This document shows positions 1-8,446 of a stretch of DNA of 64,000 bases, in pieces (position 1 is the stretch's first letter; every line of letters begins with the position of its first letter). The notes beneath the pieces were generated by a model. The model made no database searches. It had not been told where the DNA came from and saw nothing but the letters and a program-made list of their open reading frames with translations. The position numbers and the translations under genes were made by a program. The DNA is from Bacteroidales bacterium (GTDB taxonomy: Bacteria; Bacteroidota; Bacteroidia; Bacteroidales; VadinHA17), in contig JAOZPG010000013.1 in the NCBI GenBank assembly GCA_029932855.1, forward strand, positions 1-64,000, in the 5' to 3' direction.

Positions 1-1666
1 TATAGCGCAGATAGTACCAGCATGAACCTGCCCACTGGGGCATTGTATTGGTTTCCCGCCTGCCTTTCCTGCCTTTTCCGTCTGTTACATTAAGCCAGTC
101 CCCGGCATTTGCAAGGGCCGATTCACCATTGCGTCCCGGTTTATAATCATCCATATCGGGAAGCTCCAGCGGGAGTTTCGATTCGTTCAGTATTTCAATC
201 TCTCCATCTTCCCAATGTATTACGGGGAATGGTTCTCCCCAATAGCGTTGGCGACTGAAGAGCCAGTCGCGCATCTTATAGTTTACCTTGGGGGTTCCCA
301 GCTTATTATCTTCAAGCCATGATATGGTTTTTTTAATTCCCTCATCTTTGTTCAGACCGTTAATGTCGAGACCGGTTTTTATGCTGGATGAGTTAATATA
401 ATTCCCGTCGCCTGTCCAGCATTCCTCTTTAGCCAGTATCCGTGTCCGTAAATTCTTGTCAACATTGGCAGGATCAAGAATAGGGTTTATTTTAAGCTGA
501 AAAGTCTTTGCAAATTCAAAGTCGCGCTCATCGTTTGAGGGAACGGCCATGATAGCCCCGGTACCGTATCCCATTAATACATAATCAGCTATCCATATGG
601 GAATCTTCTCAAGGTTTACAGGATTCAGGGCATAGCTACCGGTAAATACGCCTGTTTTTTCCTTTGAAAGGTCGGTCCTGTCCATTTCCGACTTAAGGGC
701 TGAGCTTTTTATATAGTCTTTAACATCTTTTTCCTGCCCGGGTGTGGTAAGTTCTTTTACAAGTTCATGTTCAGGTGCAAGAACCATATAAGTGGCCCCG
801 AACAGTGTGTCCGGACGTGTGGTGAATACCCTGAGTTTATGTTCAGATCCTTCAATCTTAAAATCAAGTTCAGCACCCGTGGATTTACCTATCCAGTTCT
901 TCTGCATGTCCTTTATCCCCGCCGGCCAGTCAAGATCATCAAGTCCTTCAAGCAGTCTCTCGGCATACAAGGGGATTCGCAGCATCCATTGTTTCAGGTT
1001 TCGTTTGCTAACCTGGTTGCCGCATTTCTCGTGGCTGCCATCAGTAAGTACTTCCTCGTTTGAACACACTATCTGGCAGTGGCTGCAGTACCATACCTGG
1101 GCGTTGGCATAATAGGCAAGTCTTTTTGAGTCTGTATATTCCCGGACAGCCTTATCTCCAAGAATCTTTATTTCCCGGGGGATGGTCAGTTCTTCAATTG
1201 GTCTTCCCTTTTGCCGGTCTTCATCGAACCATGTATTATAAAGCCGGATAAATATCCATTGAGTCCACTTGAAATATCCGGGATCTGTTGTATTTACTTC
1301 CCGGTCCCAGTCATAACCCAGCCCCAGCGATTTTATCTGGCGTCTGAAAGTTTCTATATTATGTTTGGTAGTTGCGGCAGGATGTGTCCCCGTTTCAATA
1401 GCATATTGTTCTGCCGGTAGGCCAAAAGCATCCCAGCCCATGGGATGAAGTACATTAAAGCCTTTCATTCTTTTATAGCGTGCAAGGATGTCGGTTGCGG
1501 TATATCCTTCGGGGTGTCCGACATGCAGCCCGCTACCTGAGGGATAGGGAAACATATCAAGTATATAATACTTGGGCAGCGAAGTATCCATTCCTGTTTT
1601 GAAAGTTTTATTCTCTTCCCAGTATTCCTGCCATTTTTTTTCTATTTCACCAAACTTATATTCCAT
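1..1666 (-). CDS. leuS: Leucyl-tRNA synthetase, 3' end beyond left edge
   Basis: Class I aminoacyl-tRNA synthetase charging tRNA-Leu in the cytoplasm. Reading the minus strand from the ATG at 1666 gives [16 protein letters not shown], followed by the family's N-terminal block [15 protein letters not shown], which contains the HIGH-type ATP-binding motif (HVGH). Further on come a zinc-like CSHC/C region ([12 protein letters not shown]), the connective-peptide editing domain with [19 protein letters not shown], and the [11 protein letters not shown] block. The frame stays open to base 1, so about 555 residues are visible out of roughly 900 to 950. The KMSKS loop and anticodon-binding domain lie outside the window. 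Several open frames on the plus strand here (for example 767-1063) are shadows. Identity is certain; only the 5' part can be judged. Confidence 0.97.
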
Positions 1667-1814
1667 AAAACTCCGCTGATTATTAGATTACCCGTGCAAA
1701 TTACCGCTCTTCCTTATTCAAGCTGCGAAATTAGGAAAAGTTTAGCAATTACTCTAAAGCACAGCTCACTAAATCCCGGGGAGCAGTTATATATATACAA
1801 TGGATTAATTTTTG

Positions 1815-1822
1815 TACTTTTG
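1815..1822 (+). promoter_or_regulatory. Candidate Bacteroidota -7 element for tRNA-Arg
   Basis: TACTTTTG matches the Bacteroidota -7 consensus TAnnTTTG and lies 12 bp before the tRNA 5' end. No convincing TTTG/TTG -33 element is seen at the expected 19-bp distance, so this is a partial match. Confidence 0.4.
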
Positions 1823-1834
1823 ACACAGTAAAAT

Positions 1835-1908
1835 GGTCCCGTAGTTCAGCTGAATAGAACGTCAGATTCCGGTTCTGAAGGTCGTGGGTTTGAATCCCGC
1901 CGGGATCA
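1835..1908 (+). tRNA. tRNA-Arg (anticodon CCG)
   Basis: A 74-nt cloverleaf can be drawn by eye. The acceptor arm GGTCCCG pairs with CGGGATC (one G-U), discriminator A. The D-arm is GTTC/GAAC. The anticodon arm is TCAGA-TTCCGGT-TCTGA with CCG at positions 34-36, which reads the Arg codon CGG. The T-arm is GTGGG/CCCGC around a loop TTTGAAT that departs from the canonical TTCGAAT. No CCA is encoded. The T-arm and acceptor 3' strand is the sequence echoed in the repeats downstream. Confidence 0.95.
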
Positions 1909-1947
1909 CAGAACAAAGCACTGCGTAAGTAGTACAGACTAATTAAG

Positions 1948-1984
1948 AAACCCAGGTAAAGCTTGCTTTGACCTGGGTTTTAAA
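1948..1984 (+). terminator. Intrinsic terminator after tRNA-Arg
   Basis: Ten-bp perfect stem AAACCCAGGT / ACCTGGGTTT (1948-1957 and 1971-1980) around a 13-nt loop, running into TTTTAAAAATTT. It sits 40 bp after the tRNA and should end its transcript before the repeat array. Confidence 0.75.
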
Positions 1985-2026
1985 AATTTGTCTGTTTGAC
2001 TACCGCCGGTAGGCTTTGGTTATGTT

Positions 2027-2190
2027 TAATCCCACCATTGTGGATCATGAGCCTGCTTCCAGGCGAGTAATCCCACCATTGTGGATCATTAGTCTGCTTC
2101 CAGGCGAATAATCCCACCATTGCGGATCATGAGCCTGTTTCCAGGCGAATAATCCCTCCATTGCGGATCATGAGCCTGTTTCCAGGCGAG
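2027..2190. repeat. Four tandem 41-bp repeats resembling the tRNA-Arg 3' end
   Basis: Four head-to-tail units, each exactly 41 bp: 2027-2067, 2068-2108, 2109-2149 and 2150-2190. Each starts TAATCCC-(A/T)CCATTG(T/C)GGATCA, which is the tRNA-Arg 3' segment AATCCCGCCGGGATCA with about five extra bases in the middle. Each then carries a hairpin GCCTG-(C/T)TTC-CAGGC; in unit 2 the stem keeps pairing through a G-U (GTCTG). Units differ at only a few positions. There are no unique spacers, so this is not a CRISPR array. The array lies after the tRNA terminator, and a final unit at 2191 turns into an uninterrupted copy of the tRNA end. Confidence 0.9.
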
Positions 2191-2255
2191 TAATCCCGCC
2201 GGGATCACAAAACAATAAGCACTTTCTCTTATATATTAAGGGTTAGTACTATCTT
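2191..2255. repeat. Copy of the tRNA-Arg 3' end and left arm of a direct repeat
   Basis: Bases 2192-2209 (AATCCCGCCGGGATCACA) are identical to the tRNA end and flank at 1893-1910, and similarity continues through AACAA(T)AAGCAC. From 2204 to 2255 the sequence also matches 3535-3584 with a few changes, including the shared cores AACAATAAGC, TTTCTCTTA and ATTAAGGGTTAG. It is thus both a partial tRNA duplicate, as attachment sites often are, and one side of a repeat enclosing the next gene. Confidence 0.75.
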
Positions 2256-2364
2256 TACTTAATATCTACTGAAGCGTTACTGAAACAATTCATTTATTTA
2301 CTTCCCTGGATTATTGATGTTAAACAGTGGTTACAAAATATTTCATCACTCTAATTCACCTGAA

Positions 2365-3408
2365 ATGAAAGCTAAAAACATAATTATCAATGTCCTTATT
2401 ATTTCAACGGTATTTTTAAGTATGGTTCACTGTACTAAAAAAGACAATGATATATTAACAGTTGAGACTCAGCTTGTAGATTCAATAAGACTTACTTCTG
2501 CTCGCATAACAAGTAAAGTGACAGACAAGGGTGGCTCAGGTGTTACAGTTAAAGGAATTTGCTGGAGTACACAATCTGATCCTGTAATAACAAATCATAA
2601 TCTTCCGGCCGGACCTGGTGAGGGCTCTTTTGTTAGCATAATGACCGGATTGGAAGAAGATATTACTTATTTCGTAAGAGCTTATGCCTCAAATAATCAT
2701 GGAATTATATATGGAAATGGAATAAGTTTTACTATTGAGAATCCAAATATTAACTGGATCTCCGGAATAGATTGGATTGATGTCAGGGATTGGCAGAGTT
2801 ATGGAACAGTTCAGATCGGTGACCAGATATGGATGTCTGATAACCTGAATTATGGTAAAATAATTGACTCAGGAAAAGAACATGCAAACAATGGTGTTGT
2901 CGAAAAATACTGTTACAATGATAACCCTTCGAATTGCGAAAAATTTGGTGGATTATATACTTGGGATGAAACAATGAATTATGACACAATAGAAGGAATT
3001 CAGGGTATCTGTCCTGAGGGTTGGCATCTCCCAACTGAACAGGAATGGGTCACTCTATTCCGATATTTAGGAAATGAAGATGGTTATGGGGTTGCAATAA
3101 AGCTAAAAGAGGCGGGTTCAGTTAATTGGAATTCATTTAATCAAGGAACAAATGAAAGTGGTTTTACAGCACTTGGAGCAGGAAGTTGGTTTCAACATTC
3201 CGTTTTTAGAGGATATGAATTTACCGGGACACATAATTCAACTCTGTTTTGGGCATCAACTGATACTCTTATAGACAGGGGCGAAATGACTACACCTCGA
3301 TTTGCTGATCACGCATATTACATATATATTGAGTCATTTGACCACCAGGCTGTTCTATGCCATGGGGATAAAATGAGCGGGTTTTCAGTACGATGTATTA
3401 AGAACTAA
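2365..3408 (+). CDS. FISUMP-domain lipoprotein
   Basis: Predicted surface or periplasmic lipoprotein of 347 residues; function unknown. I chose the ATG at 2365 because it gives a compact signal peptide (MKAKNIIINVLIISTVFLSM) with a lipobox ending VHC, Cys23; the longer frame from a TTG at 2314 hides this. After the signal comes a fibronectin-type-III-like segment (about residues 30-130, with GICWSTQSDP and YFVRAYASN). The C-terminal part has marks of the Fibrobacter succinogenes major paralogous domain (TIGR02145): IGDQIWMSDNLNYG, GGLYTWDETM, GICPEGWHLPTEQEW, SGFTALGAG and a closing GFSVRCIKN. It has no operon partner, is AT-rich compared with neighbours, and lies between two copies of a direct repeat (2204-2255 and 3535-3584), which suggests it arrived or duplicated as a unit. 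Confidence 0.85.
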   Translation: MKAKNIIINVLIISTVFLSMVHCTKKDNDILTVETQLVDSIRLTSARITSKVTDKGGSGVTVKGICWSTQSDPVITNHNLPAGPGEGSFVSIMTGLEEDITYFVRAYASNNHGIIYGNGISFTIENPNINWISGIDWIDVRDWQSYGTVQIGDQIWMSDNLNYGKIIDSGKEHANNGVVEKYCYNDNPSNCEKFGGLYTWDETMNYDTIEGIQGICPEGWHLPTEQEWVTLFRYLGNEDGYGVAIKLKEAGSVNWNSFNQGTNESGFTALGAGSWFQHSVFRGYEFTGTHNSTLFWASTDTLIDRGEMTTPRFADHAYYIYIESFDHQAVLCHGDKMSGFSVRCIKN

Positions 3409-3654
3409 ATTCATAATACATAATCAACTTGTGCATTAGTTTGTTTATGAGATTTTGCTAAAAAACCCACATTGTTATTTCCTATTTATAACTTCTGTAC
3501 GACTATCCTCAGACACAAGGAAAAATTGAGCGCTATCACAGAACAATAAGCGATTTCTCTTACATTAAGGGTTAGCGCTTTCTTCTTGGAAGCTTTTATC
3601 ATGGAATATGGATTTTCGAATTCTGCCTTGAACTATTCGGTCCGGTTTAACAGA
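3409..3654. other. Gene-free stretch holding the right repeat arm
   Basis: No open frame with coding character was found. The only recognisable element is the direct-repeat copy at 3535-3584. AGCGCT occurs just before (3529-3534) and inside the end of that copy (about 3574-3579). Confidence 0.5.
3535..3584. repeat. Right arm of the direct repeat flanking the FISUMP gene
   Basis: Fifty bases closely matching 2204-2255 (ATCACAGAACAATAAGC, TTTCTCTTA, ATTAAGGGTTAG) about 1.33 kb away. Only the left arm still has the adjoining tRNA T-arm sequence; here the match begins at the tRNA's final ATCACA. Confidence 0.75.
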
Positions 3655-4353
3655 TCAAAAACAATATCCAACTGAAAGACCTGCGGATAGATGAAATTCA
3701 TAGTTATGTCCTTCATATTCAAGAAAGGGGGTAAAGCCTGCTTTGAAAATAATCCTCCCCTCAGGAGCCTGTTAACGATAAGCAATTCTTCCGCTTATAA
3801 CTCCACTCCAGAACCATGATACCGGATTATTCTCAATATCCCTGGAGGCCTCCCTGATAATCACATATCCTGCCCCCAGTTCAATATGATGTTTTTGAAA
3901 TGAAAAGATTTCGTTAACCAGCAGAGGTATCCAGAAGTCTCTGACACCGGTAATTTTAGGATAATATGAAAAACCTGCCTGTGCTGCGGTTTTAAATTTA
4001 TCAGCGTTAAAGATTATTCTTTCATAATTAATGGAGTAAAACATCCCGTGTCCTCCGGCTTCAAGCTGAATACTGTTTTTCTTTCTAAAATTGAAAGTTA
4101 ACTGATGCGGGAAGCTAATGCCGCCAATAAATGGAACTGTTCCTGTTCCAATAGAAGCATTAATAAAATAATTTGATTTAAAAGAAAGTTTCCTGCTGTA
4201 ATTTACAGAGGCAAATAATCCGGTTCCGCCCAGAGATAAATCAATGCTATTTTTTTTTAATTTTTTCAAGCCATTTTCCTTGCTATAAGCCATTATTGAT
4301 AATGATAGCAGCAAGCCAACAATACTTACGATTCTATTTTTTTCATTTTTCAT
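3655..4353 (-). pseudogene. Small beta-barrel-like protein gene split by an in-frame TAA
   Basis: The frame opens with a signal peptide (MKNEKNRIVSIVGLLLSLSIMAYS) and continues with alternating aromatic/polar strands typical of a small outer-membrane barrel (GGTGLFASVNYSRKL, GGHGMFYSINYERI). It stops at a TAA at 3772-3774 after 193 residues (GVISGRIAYR-stop). The same frame continues past that stop as QAPEGRIIFKAGFTPFLE and closes with SAGLSVGYCF and TGA at 3655. That tail is the expected end of the barrel, with the final Phe of outer-membrane proteins. The undisturbed product would be about 232 residues. A nonsense mutation (such as TAT to TAA) is the simple reading; readthrough or a sequencing error are the alternatives. 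Family function is unknown. Confidence 0.75.
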
Positions 4354-4478
4354 CCTGTTTATTGGTTCTGCAGGCTTTGTCTTCTTATAACGAAATAATC
4401 ATCTTTTTTTTTCATAATTTACCGATAAGCGAAGTTCTGTATGGTGGACTAGTATATTTAAATAGAAACTGAAGTATT

Positions 4479-4516
4479 AAAAAATGCACCATCATCAGGA
4501 TAACAGTGCATTTTTT
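4479..4516 (-). terminator. Bidirectional intrinsic terminator after the cyd operon
   Basis: Eleven-bp stem AAAAAATGCAC / GTGCATTTTTT around a 16-nt loop, A-tract on one side and T-tract on the other, so it can work both ways. It lies 167 bp after the last cyd-operon gene on the minus strand. Confidence 0.75.
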
Positions 4517-5962: not shown

Positions 5963-7484
5963 GGCTGCCTCCTTTCTCGGGACCCTTTTTTATCTGGGTA
6001 ATTAATATTTTTATTTCTGCAATTAACAAAACGCTGAACAGGGCAAAAAACATAAAGAATGTAGTTTGTACCGAACCAACACTCAGGTGTGATGTGGAAG
6101 CTGTAACCGGTAAAAGATCCTGTATGGTCCAGGGCTGGCGGCCAACTTCGGCAACTATCCATCCCAGTTCTGTTGCTATGTATCCTAAAAGAAGCGACCA
6201 GAGGGAAATAATTAAAAGCAATTTGTTTTTTACCAGTCTGTCTTTTAGGCTTACATACAAGAGCCAGGCAAACAATAAGATAAAGAATAAGCCCAGGGCT
6301 ACCATGATATGGAATGAATAAAATGTTAATGGCACATTGGGGACTATTTCTTCTTTATCTTTGAAAAAGCCATACCCGAAGTGGGAATAATTTGTTTCAA
6401 ATTCTTTGAGTTTCTGATCTGCCAGTTCATCATTTCCTTCTTTTCTGGCTTGTTTATAATCAGCAAGAGCCTTAATTGCAATCTTTCCTTTCTCTATCCT
6501 GCTTTCGGCTGAAAGGATTCCCTGTTCTTCATTCCCATTTAGTATGTCGTTTACCCCCGGCACAAAAGCATCTGCATTCCTGAAAGCCATAATTGAAAGC
6601 ATGCCGGGTATTTTTATTCCTTTAAAGTTTGTATTGTCTTTATTTTTATTTAAAAGACCAACAACATATAGGTCAGCACTTTCTTCACCATCGTATAAAG
6701 CTTCCATAGCAGCTAATTTCATGGGTTGTGTGTGTGCTATATTAAAGGAAGAACTGTCGCCGGTAATGCTAACAAAAACAGATGCCAGCAAGCCGAAGAC
6801 CGAAGCAATGATTATACTTTTTCTGGCAAAAAGCAAATGCCTGTTTTTCAGTATGAACCAGGCACTGATGGAAATAACGAACAAAGCGCCAATTACATAA
6901 GATTGCGAGACGGTATGCAGGAATTTAAATACTGCTGTAGGCGAGAGGGCAATATCAAAAAAGTTTACCATTTCGTTACGGGCTGTATCGGCATTAAATG
7001 CGGTACCTGTCGGGTTTTGCATCCATGCATTGGCAATAAGTATCCACAATGCCGATAAGTTTGAGCCAATTGCAACAAACCAGGAAGAGAGCATGTGAAA
7101 TTTTTTGCTAACACGATCCCATCCAAAAAACATTATTGCAATAAAACTGGATTCAAGGAAAAAGGCAAGGATACCTTCAATGGCTAACGGTGCGCCAAAA
7201 ATATCTCCAACAATCCACGAATAATTCGACCAGTTCAGTCCGAATTCGAATTCAAGTATAATGCCGGTGGCAACACCAATTGCGAAGTTAATTCCAAACA
7301 GTTTCATCCAGAATCTTGTCATAATCTTCCACTCTTCATCTCTTGTCTTGTAGTAGATAGTGTGCATAAATGCCACAATAAACGACAATCCAAGAGTTAG
7401 CGGAACAAAAATCCAGTGGTAGAGGGCAGTTAATGCAAACTGAGCCCTGGACCAGTCTACTAAAGCTAAATCGAAATGTTCCAT
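5955..7484 (-). CDS. cydA: Cytochrome bd ubiquinol oxidase subunit I
   Basis: Haem-carrying subunit of cytochrome bd. The N-terminus VDWSRAQFALTALYHWIF has the early His (His23) that serves as a haem axial ligand in the family. FGINFAIGVATGIILEFEFG and EGILAFFLESSFIAIMFFGWDRV are the conserved transmembrane blocks with acidic residues of the haem/proton path. The quinol-side loop region (about residues 240-370) is of medium length and charged, and VAEVGRQPW is the conserved GRQPW motif. At 509 residues it is full length. It follows the DUF4492 gene by 19 bp and overlaps cydB by 8 bp. Confidence 0.97.
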   Translation of the reverse strand: MEHFDLALVDWSRAQFALTALYHWIFVPLTLGLSFIVAFMHTIYYKTRDEEWKIMTRFWMKLFGINFAIGVATGIILEFEFGLNWSNYSWIVGDIFGAPLAIEGILAFFLESSFIAIMFFGWDRVSKKFHMLSSWFVAIGSNLSALWILIANAWMQNPTGTAFNADTARNEMVNFFDIALSPTAVFKFLHTVSQSYVIGALFVISISAWFILKNRHLLFARKSIIIASVFGLLASVFVSITGDSSSFNIAHTQPMKLAAMEALYDGEESADLYVVGLLNKNKDNTNFKGIKIPGMLSIMAFRNADAFVPGVNDILNGNEEQGILSAESRIEKGKIAIKALADYKQARKEGNDELADQKLKEFETNYSHFGYGFFKDKEEIVPNVPLTFYSFHIMVALGLFFILLFAWLLYVSLKDRLVKNKLLLIISLWSLLLGYIATELGWIVAEVGRQPWTIQDLLPVTASTSHLSVGSVQTTFFMFFALFSVLLIAEIKILITQIKKGPEKGGSHV

Positions 7485-7503
7485 TAATTTAGTTTTTTGT
7501 TAA

Positions 7504-7710
7504 TTATTCCTGACCTATTAGTTGTTCGATTACATAATCGCCTTTTTCTTTATCGGTATCGAATTTTGAGTTAAGAAAATTTGGGAAGAAAAAAATCTTT
7601 AAGATGATAAACATAATAAAAAGCTTCACGAGAATAATGACCCACAGTTTTTTATTGTGAACCGACATTTCTTTAAAGCCACTAATATAGAAATCAATAA
7701 TTTTTTTCAT
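7504..7710 (-). CDS. DUF4492-type small membrane protein of the cyd operon
   Basis: A 68-residue protein: amphipathic start MKKIIDFYISGFKEMS, one hydrophobic helix (VIILVKLFIMFIILKIFFFP) and a soluble acidic C-terminus. Size, sequence style and location directly before cydA fit the DUF4492 family, which is commonly found at the head of cydAB in Bacteroidota. Its biochemical job is not known; a part in assembly or stability of the oxidase is inference from the conserved position. Only 19 bp separate it from cydA. Confidence 0.85.
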   Translation of the reverse strand: MKKIIDFYISGFKEMSVHNKKLWVIILVKLFIMFIILKIFFFPNFLNSKFDTDKEKGDYVIEQLIGQE

Positions 7711-7759
7711 TGACAGTATCCTTTCCTTTCCTGCCTGAGATGGACTGCCCCGGTGTTTT

Positions 7760-8446
7760 TTACCTGATTGCTGCCAGGACAGTTCTTTCTTTTAGCTTGC
7801 CTTTTTTGTCGTAGGTCTCACTTTTTACTACTCCCAGGTCTTTTGCATACCATGTGCTTAGCGAGTAAGTAAATTTGAATATAGCCTTCATCTCCATCTT
7901 ACTGTTCACTTTAATGCATTCAAAGCTGCCGGCATCGGTGGTCACGGTTTCCACTGCCTCTACTTTTCTTTCCTTTACATCCAGGCTAATAGTAATCAGC
8001 CTCGTATCGCCGTTATATACTTCGGCAACTACCCTGCCACCTCCCAGGTCATCACCGGCTTTTGCGTTCCCCGGTATGCTCATATTGTCTGCTGTGACCC
8101 TGGTTTCCATATCTCCGTATGCACTCATCTGCTCATTGTCCATTAACATAGATTCCATATCAACAGACATAGCTCCGTTTTCACATTTAATGGTATATTC
8201 AATAGTTGTTGTAGTATCAATATCTACCTCTTTATTTTCTTCCCTGATCCTTACCTCTAAACCTCCGGGTATCTTTTTTTTACTTAAAACGGTCTTTGTT
8301 GAAGTAGCGGTAAGCTTCCCCTTTTTGTTAAGGTCATGGTATTCAAATACCTTTCCTTCTTCCTGTGGAAAAAAGGATTTACAATCCTGGGCATTTAGAA
8401 ATCCTGCTACTAATAATATGAGCGAAAGAGCAAATAGTTTTTTCAT
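7760..8446 (-). CDS. Secreted TapB/DUF3108-like protein
   Basis: A 228-residue protein with a signal peptide (MKKLFALSLILLVAGFLNAQ). The mature part begins DCKSFFPQEEGKVFEYHDLN, a phrase common in Bacteroidota periplasmic proteins of the TapB/DUF3108-like type, and has beta-rich repeats ending STWYAKDLGVVKSETYDKKG. It probably folds as a beta-barrel-like domain in the periplasm or outer membrane. No catalytic motif is evident. It is 49 bp upstream of the DUF4492/cyd genes on the same strand and could share their transcript, though no functional tie is known. The family call is from sequence style and is moderately sure. Confidence 0.65.
   Translation of the reverse strand: MKKLFALSLILLVAGFLNAQDCKSFFPQEEGKVFEYHDLNKKGKLTATSTKTVLSKKKIPGGLEVRIREENKEVDIDTTTTIEYTIKCENGAMSVDMESMLMDNEQMSAYGDMETRVTADNMSIPGNAKAGDDLGGGRVVAEVYNGDTRLITISLDVKERKVEAVETVTTDAGSFECIKVNSKMEMKAIFKFTYSLSTWYAKDLGVVKSETYDKKGKLKERTVLAAIR

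Follow-up and report, generated by a model that had tools for sequence, protein, structure and literature searches.

Introduction

The 3' ends of tRNA genes are classic landing sites (attB) of bacterial mobile DNA, and the elements described at these sites are large and coding. The attC sites of integrons are characterized by the core GTTRRRY/RYYYAAC, and 3'ETS-leuZ of E. coli is a tRNA external transcribed spacer that acts as a small RNA. According to the available parts of the respective articles, YRs insert downstream of tRNA genes (PMC8138268), REP palindromes carry a GTAG or CGTC tag at one end (PMC3733652), and the BrickBuilt MITE of Porphyromonas gingivalis combines a 23-nt minisatellite with inverted-repeat ends (PMC4596501).

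Here we analyze an array of short repeats behind a tRNA-Arg(CCG) gene of a Bacteroidales bacterium. On balance, we slightly favor the interpretation that this array belongs to a miniature element that has inserted into the 3' end of tRNA-Arg(CCG), of which it forms the hairpin part, P5. In the literature covered, in which subscription journals are thinly represented, the available parts of the articles (including PMC8040213, PMC2864571, PMC3733652, PMC8138268, and PMC4596501) describe no such element.

The tRNA-Arg Locus and Its Tandem Array

Contig C3 of a 2.6-Mb assembly begins with the window, a stretch of 64,000 nucleotides. The features relevant to the locus are the following.

1835–1909, + strand: tRNA-Arg(CCG), the host gene, with its T-loop TTTGAAT at 1889–1895 (ARAGORN; Rfam RF00005)
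1893–1910, + strand: direct repeat copy 1, from T-loop A58 to the first trailer bases (AATCCCGCCGGGATCACA; alignment)
1914–2018, + strand: trailer fold (folding)
1914–1919 with 2013–2018, + strand: trailer helix P1
1934–1995, + strand: long trailer hairpin P3, with a CUUG loop at 1962–1965
2000–2012, + strand: P4-like CTACCGCCGGTAG in the trailer fold
2027–2190, + strand: four tandem 41-bp units, each consisting of linker and P5 (Tandem Repeats Finder, alignment)
2042–2073, + strand: P5 hairpin of unit 1 (exact pattern; model R1, 40.1 bits)
2083–2114, + strand: P5 hairpin of unit 2, with TAG for GAG (model R1, 28.4 bits)
2124–2155, + strand: P5 hairpin of unit 3 (model R1, 42 bits; among R1's own source sequences)
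2165–2196, + strand: P5 hairpin of unit 4, whose right arm continues into the tRNA-end copy (model R1, 39 bits)
2192–2209, + strand: direct repeat copy 2, an unsplit tRNA-Arg 3' end (alignment)
2214–2250, + strand: probable older tRNA-Arg trailer (AATAAGC...GGTTAGTACT), which resembles the sequence behind the element in the relative G013 (alignment with L007)

A preliminary description of this DNA had reported four tandem 41-bp units after tRNA-Arg(CCG), and both Tandem Repeats Finder (period 41, 4.2 copies, 93% matches at 2027–2197, top score among 7 rows) and alignment bear this out. The four units agree pairwise at 35–39 of 41 positions, corresponding to 2–6 differences, and all of them share the layout TAATCCC-n-CCATTG-n-GGATCAT-... 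The hairpin that had been noted in each unit is likewise present: GCCTG-YTTC-CAGGC pairs exactly in units 1, 3, and 4, and unit 2 (GTCTG/CAGGC) keeps the pairing through one U.G. A fifth start at 2191 continues as TAATCCCGCCGGGATCACA and, as previously read, turns into an unsplit copy of the tRNA end, since 2192–2209 is identical to 1893–1910 at 18/18 bases. The distance from C61 (1896) to its equivalent base in copy 2 (2195) is 299 bp. No terminator is found in the trailer of this copy by a strict rule, no ORF of at least 80 aa is listed in 1113–2313, and we infer that the units code for no protein.

Two copies resembling the 3' end and trailer of tRNA-Arg (ATCACARAACAATAAGC...AAGGGTTAG), located at 2214–2250 and 3533–3584, bracket an adjacent segment of 1.3 kb. 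This segment holds one Fib_succ_major ORF (PF09603) at 2314–3408 and is perhaps a second, coding insert at tRNA-Arg.

A Hairpin Family Behind tRNA Genes

The hairpin of the array belongs to a family with the consensus GGATCAYGAG-stem-CGARTAATCC, whose members occupy tRNA 3' ends of Bacteroidota; judging by these other carriers, the window would itself be assigned to this phylum. Cultured carriers include Robiginitalea myxolifaciens DSM 21019 and Luteirhabdus pelagi A3-108. An exact pattern of the hairpin matches 19/98 genomes of the window's family, compared to 0/98 for the reversed pattern used as a control, and it occurs in at least 114 stretches of the species-genome collection and in one viral contig. 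When the species-genome collection and the viral contigs are pooled, the matches listed comprise 138 distinct sites. Among these, 90 have a tRNA within 1 kb upstream, and in 90/90 of them P5 has the orientation of the tRNA strand. Of these 90 sites, 47 lie 130–160 nt past the tRNA end. The tRNAs ahead of the 90 sites are Ser, Pro, Tyr, Arg, Val, and Lys, with 15 isoacceptors among the matches listed. In a set of 95 tRNA genes with P5, the core is also present at the junction behind Gln tRNA.

Wide occurrence of the 41-mer outside any tRNA context had been named in the preliminary description as an argument against its reading of the array. Sites of this kind exist: 48 of the 138 listed show no tRNA within 1 kb upstream. 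Of these, 14 come from contigs whose titles name other phyla, probably by chance, and several are truncated at a contig or locus end or lie beside damaged tRNA ends; some sites in Bacteroidota have no visible tRNA at all. In the window's own genome, weaker copies (GAGCTCATGAG...CGAATAAC) are dispersed off tRNA genes at C16:40139, C18:9229, and C6:32343, those at C16 and C18 having flanks in common.

The distribution of the family is patchy. Model R1 matches 17/21 genomes of the window's family (18/35 overall, own genome included), as opposed to 6/246 other genomes in a phylum sample under stricter filters, and the strict P5 pattern is found in 16/294 genomes across the class. Within the own genome, the junction, P5, or a combination of the two is seen by eye at 9–10 of the 30 tRNAs surveyed, three of the 30 having too little downstream sequence. 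A pattern built from the downstream trailer has no match in the viral contigs. At the gathering score, Rfam returns only tRNAs and one DUF805 RNA for window positions 1500–4500 and 33 loci; with no match over the elements, a known Rfam RNA can be rejected, in agreement with the earlier statement that no known family is recognizable. The DUF805 RNA (RF03081) lies at 1823–1891 of locus L036, about 0.3 kb beyond the element.

The sameness of the core among pattern matches is partly built in, since most of the core is fixed by the search pattern. Two positions are left free, and these covary: in the 90 listed tRNA-associated sites they read C-G 67 times, T-A 16 times, T-G 6 times, and C-A once. 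The outer stem occurs by eye as GGGAT/ATCCC, GTGAT/ATCAC, and GAGAT/ATCTC, and variants without the G.A pair exist as well (G009). For 30 picked P5 sequences, the pairing score is 0.293 compared to 0.097 after shuffling, and cells with both sides changed number 51 compared to 17.0; covarying pairs (6 vs. 5.6) and pair types (15 vs. 15.0) show no excess.

These data also bear on the proposal that the units are modeled on the end of tRNA-Arg. The segment GGATCA...TAAT does not vary with the host, whether this is a Ser, Pro, Val, Tyr, or another tRNA; half of the array's likeness to the tRNA (GGATCA) is part of a hairpin that is unchanged behind tRNAs with very different ends. As P5 follows 15 isoacceptors, the likeness of GGATCA to tRNA-Arg is not a copy of that tRNA. 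Over 74 elements, the host tRNA is tracked only by the outer-end bases of P5 and the bases beyond: the first three bases agree with the host at 2.73/3, compared to 2.39 in permutations (0 of 2000). Past the tRNA end, 13 positions in the same 74 elements show no likeness (3.35 vs. 3.42 permuted). The constant core and the permutation test thus rule out the whole unit as a copy of tRNA-Arg, and what stands of the proposal is the tracking of the host by the outer P5 bases.

Spare tRNA 3' Ends, Filled and Empty Sites

In 16 of the 95 tRNAs, the host's own 3' end is repeated right behind P5, starting from the T-loop, at 12/16 bases or more, whereas 2.57 cases are expected from the ends of other isoacceptors. 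At 14/16 bases or more, 14 tRNA genes compare to 0.81 expected on the same basis. tRNAs with a T-loop outside the motif were dropped from the 95, including that of the window (TTTGAAT), which reaches 15/16 bases on this measure. No tRNA-end copy is visible in the remaining 79/95 tRNAs with P5. Around C61, the number of the 16 cases that are identical is 15–16 at positions -3 to +11 and 14–15 at +12/+13, and it drops to 11 at +14, 4 at +15, and 0 at -4 to -8. A stretch of 17 identical bases is hence delimited sharply on both sides, with the reservation that the cases were selected by the match itself and that the three bases ahead of C61 are fixed in P5 anyway.

The units in these 16 cases measure 64–206 bp. 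The smallest ones, of 64–98 bp (L114, L134, L111, and L214), keep P5 and the repeat and show no four-way junction by eye, which identifies P5 as the constant part. What follows the tRNA-end copy, as judged by eye, is an ordinary terminator in L106, L119, L147, and L027, as expected of an original trailer, and another trailer of like sort in L040, L137, and L111.

A filled and an empty site can be compared in genus g8. At tRNA-Ser(GCT), the repeat is present twice, 98 bp apart, in G009 and once in G117, with flanks identical at 77/77 positions on the left and 224/250 on the right. By eye, the 98-bp insert of G009 is unlike the trailer behind it, and it is therefore not a mere duplication of that trailer. 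That the empty site came first is our inference; slippage can also remove a direct repeat spaced by 98 bp, in which case the empty state would be the derived one. A bounded direct repeat in a minority of copies, together with one filled and one empty site, is nevertheless established, and the tRNA-end duplication or attachment-site history that the preliminary description had suggested is in outline supported by the repeat in 16/95 tRNAs and the window and by the filled/empty pair.

Evidence for movement or exchange between tRNA genes comes from the same two genomes, whose Ser anticodons were assigned by eye. The units at Ser(CGA) and Ser(GGA) of G117 are identical at 187/189 bases, whereas the Ser(CGA) units of the two genomes match each other at 169/194. 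This near-identity reflects spread or conversion within the genome, and gene conversion between tRNA-Ser genes could also make units alike. In genus g12, the element behind tRNA-Val(TAC) is of type A in G028 and of type B in G069, whereas G033 shows B followed by an A-like start and G013 a plain terminator (by eye, with synteny assumed); the single case of G033 suggests that the newest insertion adjoins the tRNA. Elements also appear to reside long at their sites, as the nearest neighbor has the same isoacceptor in 37/80 elements, compared to 9.7 after shuffling. Of the later array units, 25/41 keep a strand able to pair with the tRNA-abutting strand (z < -2, simple shuffles).

Related arrangements are visible at further loci. 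Units of about 100 bp lie upstream of tRNA-Ser(GCT), several in G117 (L338, C8) and one in G009 (L342, C25); in them, the 5' half of the tRNA bears a hairpin (TCCGCC...GGCGGA, then TAA) where the anticodon arm would lie, and they resemble a mirror-image array on the 5' side. Upstream of tRNA-Ser(TGA) in the own genome (L175, C9), fragments of the tRNA-Ser 5' part have a D-loop interrupted by P5-like hairpins. The viral contig L167 carries at 7160–7830 an integrated-looking element with an integrase-like ORF (by eye), which ends in a tRNA-Ser 3'-end copy with a junction-P5 array behind it; a tRNA that bore small elements beforehand may thus have served as the target of a larger one.

Proposed Mechanism of Insertion

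If the array is indeed part of a miniature inserted element, its general unit would begin with a replacement 3' end for the tRNA, running from C61 up to the discriminator. Next would come a trailer, often folded as a terminator-bearing four-way junction, then some 20 nt of linker, and finally the P5 hairpin with TAAT at its end, P5 being the putative folded junction site. Units would join at or just past the T-loop (AAT^C61, or anywhere within the 17 identical bases), and joining at this position would leave the tRNA whole with a spare 3' end behind P5. We suppose that folded P5 and the T-arm are the substrates of a recombinase, and that recognition may proceed via the likeness of the two, with a T-stem copy outside and the loop replaced. 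Head-to-tail arrays could then grow beside the tRNA by repeated insertion or unequal copying.

The Trailer Fold and a Possible RNA Function

The stretch between tRNA and P5 is structured. Over 80 elements, the mean folding z is -7.06, with 77/80 below -3, and the minimum-energy fold is a four-way junction in 52/80. Its outer helix begins 0 nt past the called tRNA end in 46/80 elements, the long hairpin P3 is often CUUG-tipped (46 CUUG loops among the 80 elements), and 19–24 unpaired bases precede the P5 core in 47/65 elements with at least two branches. In stems with at least 8 Watson-Crick pairs, G.T exceeds A.C mismatches by 41:13 (p 2e-4; 175:166 in shuffles), which suggests that the folding strand is the tRNA strand; over six settings p ranges from 2e-4 to 0.08 and the direction is constant. 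In six Ser(TGA) elements, RNAalifold retains P3, the linker hairpin, and P5 in the consensus, with both sides changed in 17/39 pairs. We consider a strand-specific conserved fold of the tRNA strand as established.

These observations would all suit a functional structured RNA, in which the P1–P5 trailer of certain tRNA transcripts is retained as a guide for 3'-end processing or termination, or as a small RNA in its own right, and the duplications are by-products. The same applies to the six copies located between tRNA-Tyr and tRNA-Gly: by the strict rule, 0/6 have a terminator ahead of P5, compared to 55/85 copies outside such pairs, and four of the six retain a P3-shaped stem with CUCG or CUGG loops. 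The location of copies within tRNA operons and the conservation of the junction point to a role that goes further than insertion. As the principal explanation of the elements, we nonetheless regard an RNA function as rather unlikely. P1, P2, and P4 are absent from the consensus of the six Ser(TGA) elements, so their upkeep rests on single-sequence folds, and with 22 Ser(TGA) elements RNAalifold recovers only the P3 tip and P5; we think that the variable stems are misaligned by MAFFT. By eye, the smallest units lack the junction while keeping P5 and the repeat, the presence of the elements is patchy even among the tRNAs of one genome, and a terminator precedes P5 in the majority of the 85 copies. 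Moreover, the fold could be that of single-stranded DNA: trailer and array of the window fold beyond shuffles with z -5.76 as RNA and -5.67 as DNA, and GNA, GNNA, and CUUG loops fail to decide between the two. Of the structured RNA or binding array envisaged in the preliminary description, the structure has thus gained support from P5, P3, and the G.T excess, and an RNA or binding role is putative.

Improbable Alternatives: Passive Duplication and REP Palindromes

Passive tandem duplication, i.e., slippage or template switching at hairpins that copied the tRNA 3' end together with its trailer and involved no mobile element, could account for the tandem units with a truncated final unit in L339–L341 (by eye), for the repetition of the trailer in L137 and L111, and for the variable P5 spacing of 38 to 278 bp across 28 arrays, which hold up to five P5. 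We hold this to be improbable. One and the same P5 core is found at junctions behind Ser, Pro, Arg, Val, Tyr, and Gln tRNAs and near Lys, and slippage fails to explain P5 because it cannot invent one sequence common to different tRNAs. In addition, the likeness to the host stops at the tRNA end over the 74 elements, and the insert of G009 does not resemble the trailer that follows it.

That REP/RAYT-type palindromes settled by chance behind tRNA genes is very improbable and was rejected: short hairpins, tandem copies, the weaker dispersed copies off tRNA genes, and Y1_Tnp genes in 26/35 relatives are compatible with it, but Y1_Tnp has 0 matches in the two P5-rich genomes G000 and G020 (19 and 11 P5-model matches, respectively), the GTAG/CGTC tag is absent from the P5 alignment, and P5 has a single orientation in 90/90 tRNA-associated sites among the matches listed.

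Implications

If insertion into tRNA 3' ends is confirmed, folded units of 64–206 bp that insert at the T-loop, supply a tRNA end themselves, and form arrays would be the smallest tRNA-landing elements known to us. They would explain odd tRNA fragments in Bacteroidota and would offer clean filled and empty sites for seeking the enzyme. Should the fold work as RNA, it would represent an unlisted structured RNA attached to roughly one in three of the 30 own-genome tRNAs surveyed.

Comparison With Known Systems

Like 3'ETS-leuZ, the sequence behind the host gene is a tRNA 3' trailer that may act as RNA; a multi-helix fold common to the elements, the hairpin core, and the additional tRNA end set it apart. 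BrickBuilt is similar as a miniature Bacteroidota repeat with tandem units; the available part of its description mentions no tRNA-gene target (PMC4596501). REP/RAYT systems are alike in short hairpins and clusters, whereas P5 is tRNA-anchored, untagged, and of single orientation.

The parallels to integron cassettes are closer. In both, the 3' end of the unit is an imperfect folded hairpin that contains unpaired bases and ends variably, and both form head-to-tail arrays in one orientation. In contrast to cassettes, the units offer no room for an ordinary gene, and the target is the tRNA T-loop. A canonical integron was rejected: a GTTRRRY core is absent from the P5 alignment, in which P5 ends in TAAT^CC, and the integron integrase (TIGR02249), above the cut-off in 3/35 relatives, does not exceed it in G000 and G009. 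We tentatively speculate, with considerable doubt, about an integron-like system that uses tRNA genes as attachment sites, in which the cassettes would be replacement tRNA 3' ends with terminators, a recombinase would join folded P5, as a look-alike of the T-arm, to the T-loop, and new cassettes would enter beside the tRNA.

Insertion of a miniature element, which we favor, finds its nearest counterpart in the ICEs, prophages, and islands at tRNA 3' ends, which likewise display a tRNA 3'-end direct repeat and a restored tRNA; placement of the newest insertion beside the tRNA, suggested by G033 alone, would be a further common trait. Unlike these, the hairpin elements span only 64–206 bp (16 clear cases), lack an integrase gene of their own, share one core at many tRNAs, and stack in arrays. 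Tyrosine recombinase matches of below-cut-off strength occur in 34/35 relatives, and none is tied to P5. As the integron, REP/RAYT, and Rfam tests failed and no description was found, we class the elements as apparently undescribed tRNA-targeting elements. Altogether, they behave like a tRNA-targeting integrative element that is too small for an integrase gene of its own.
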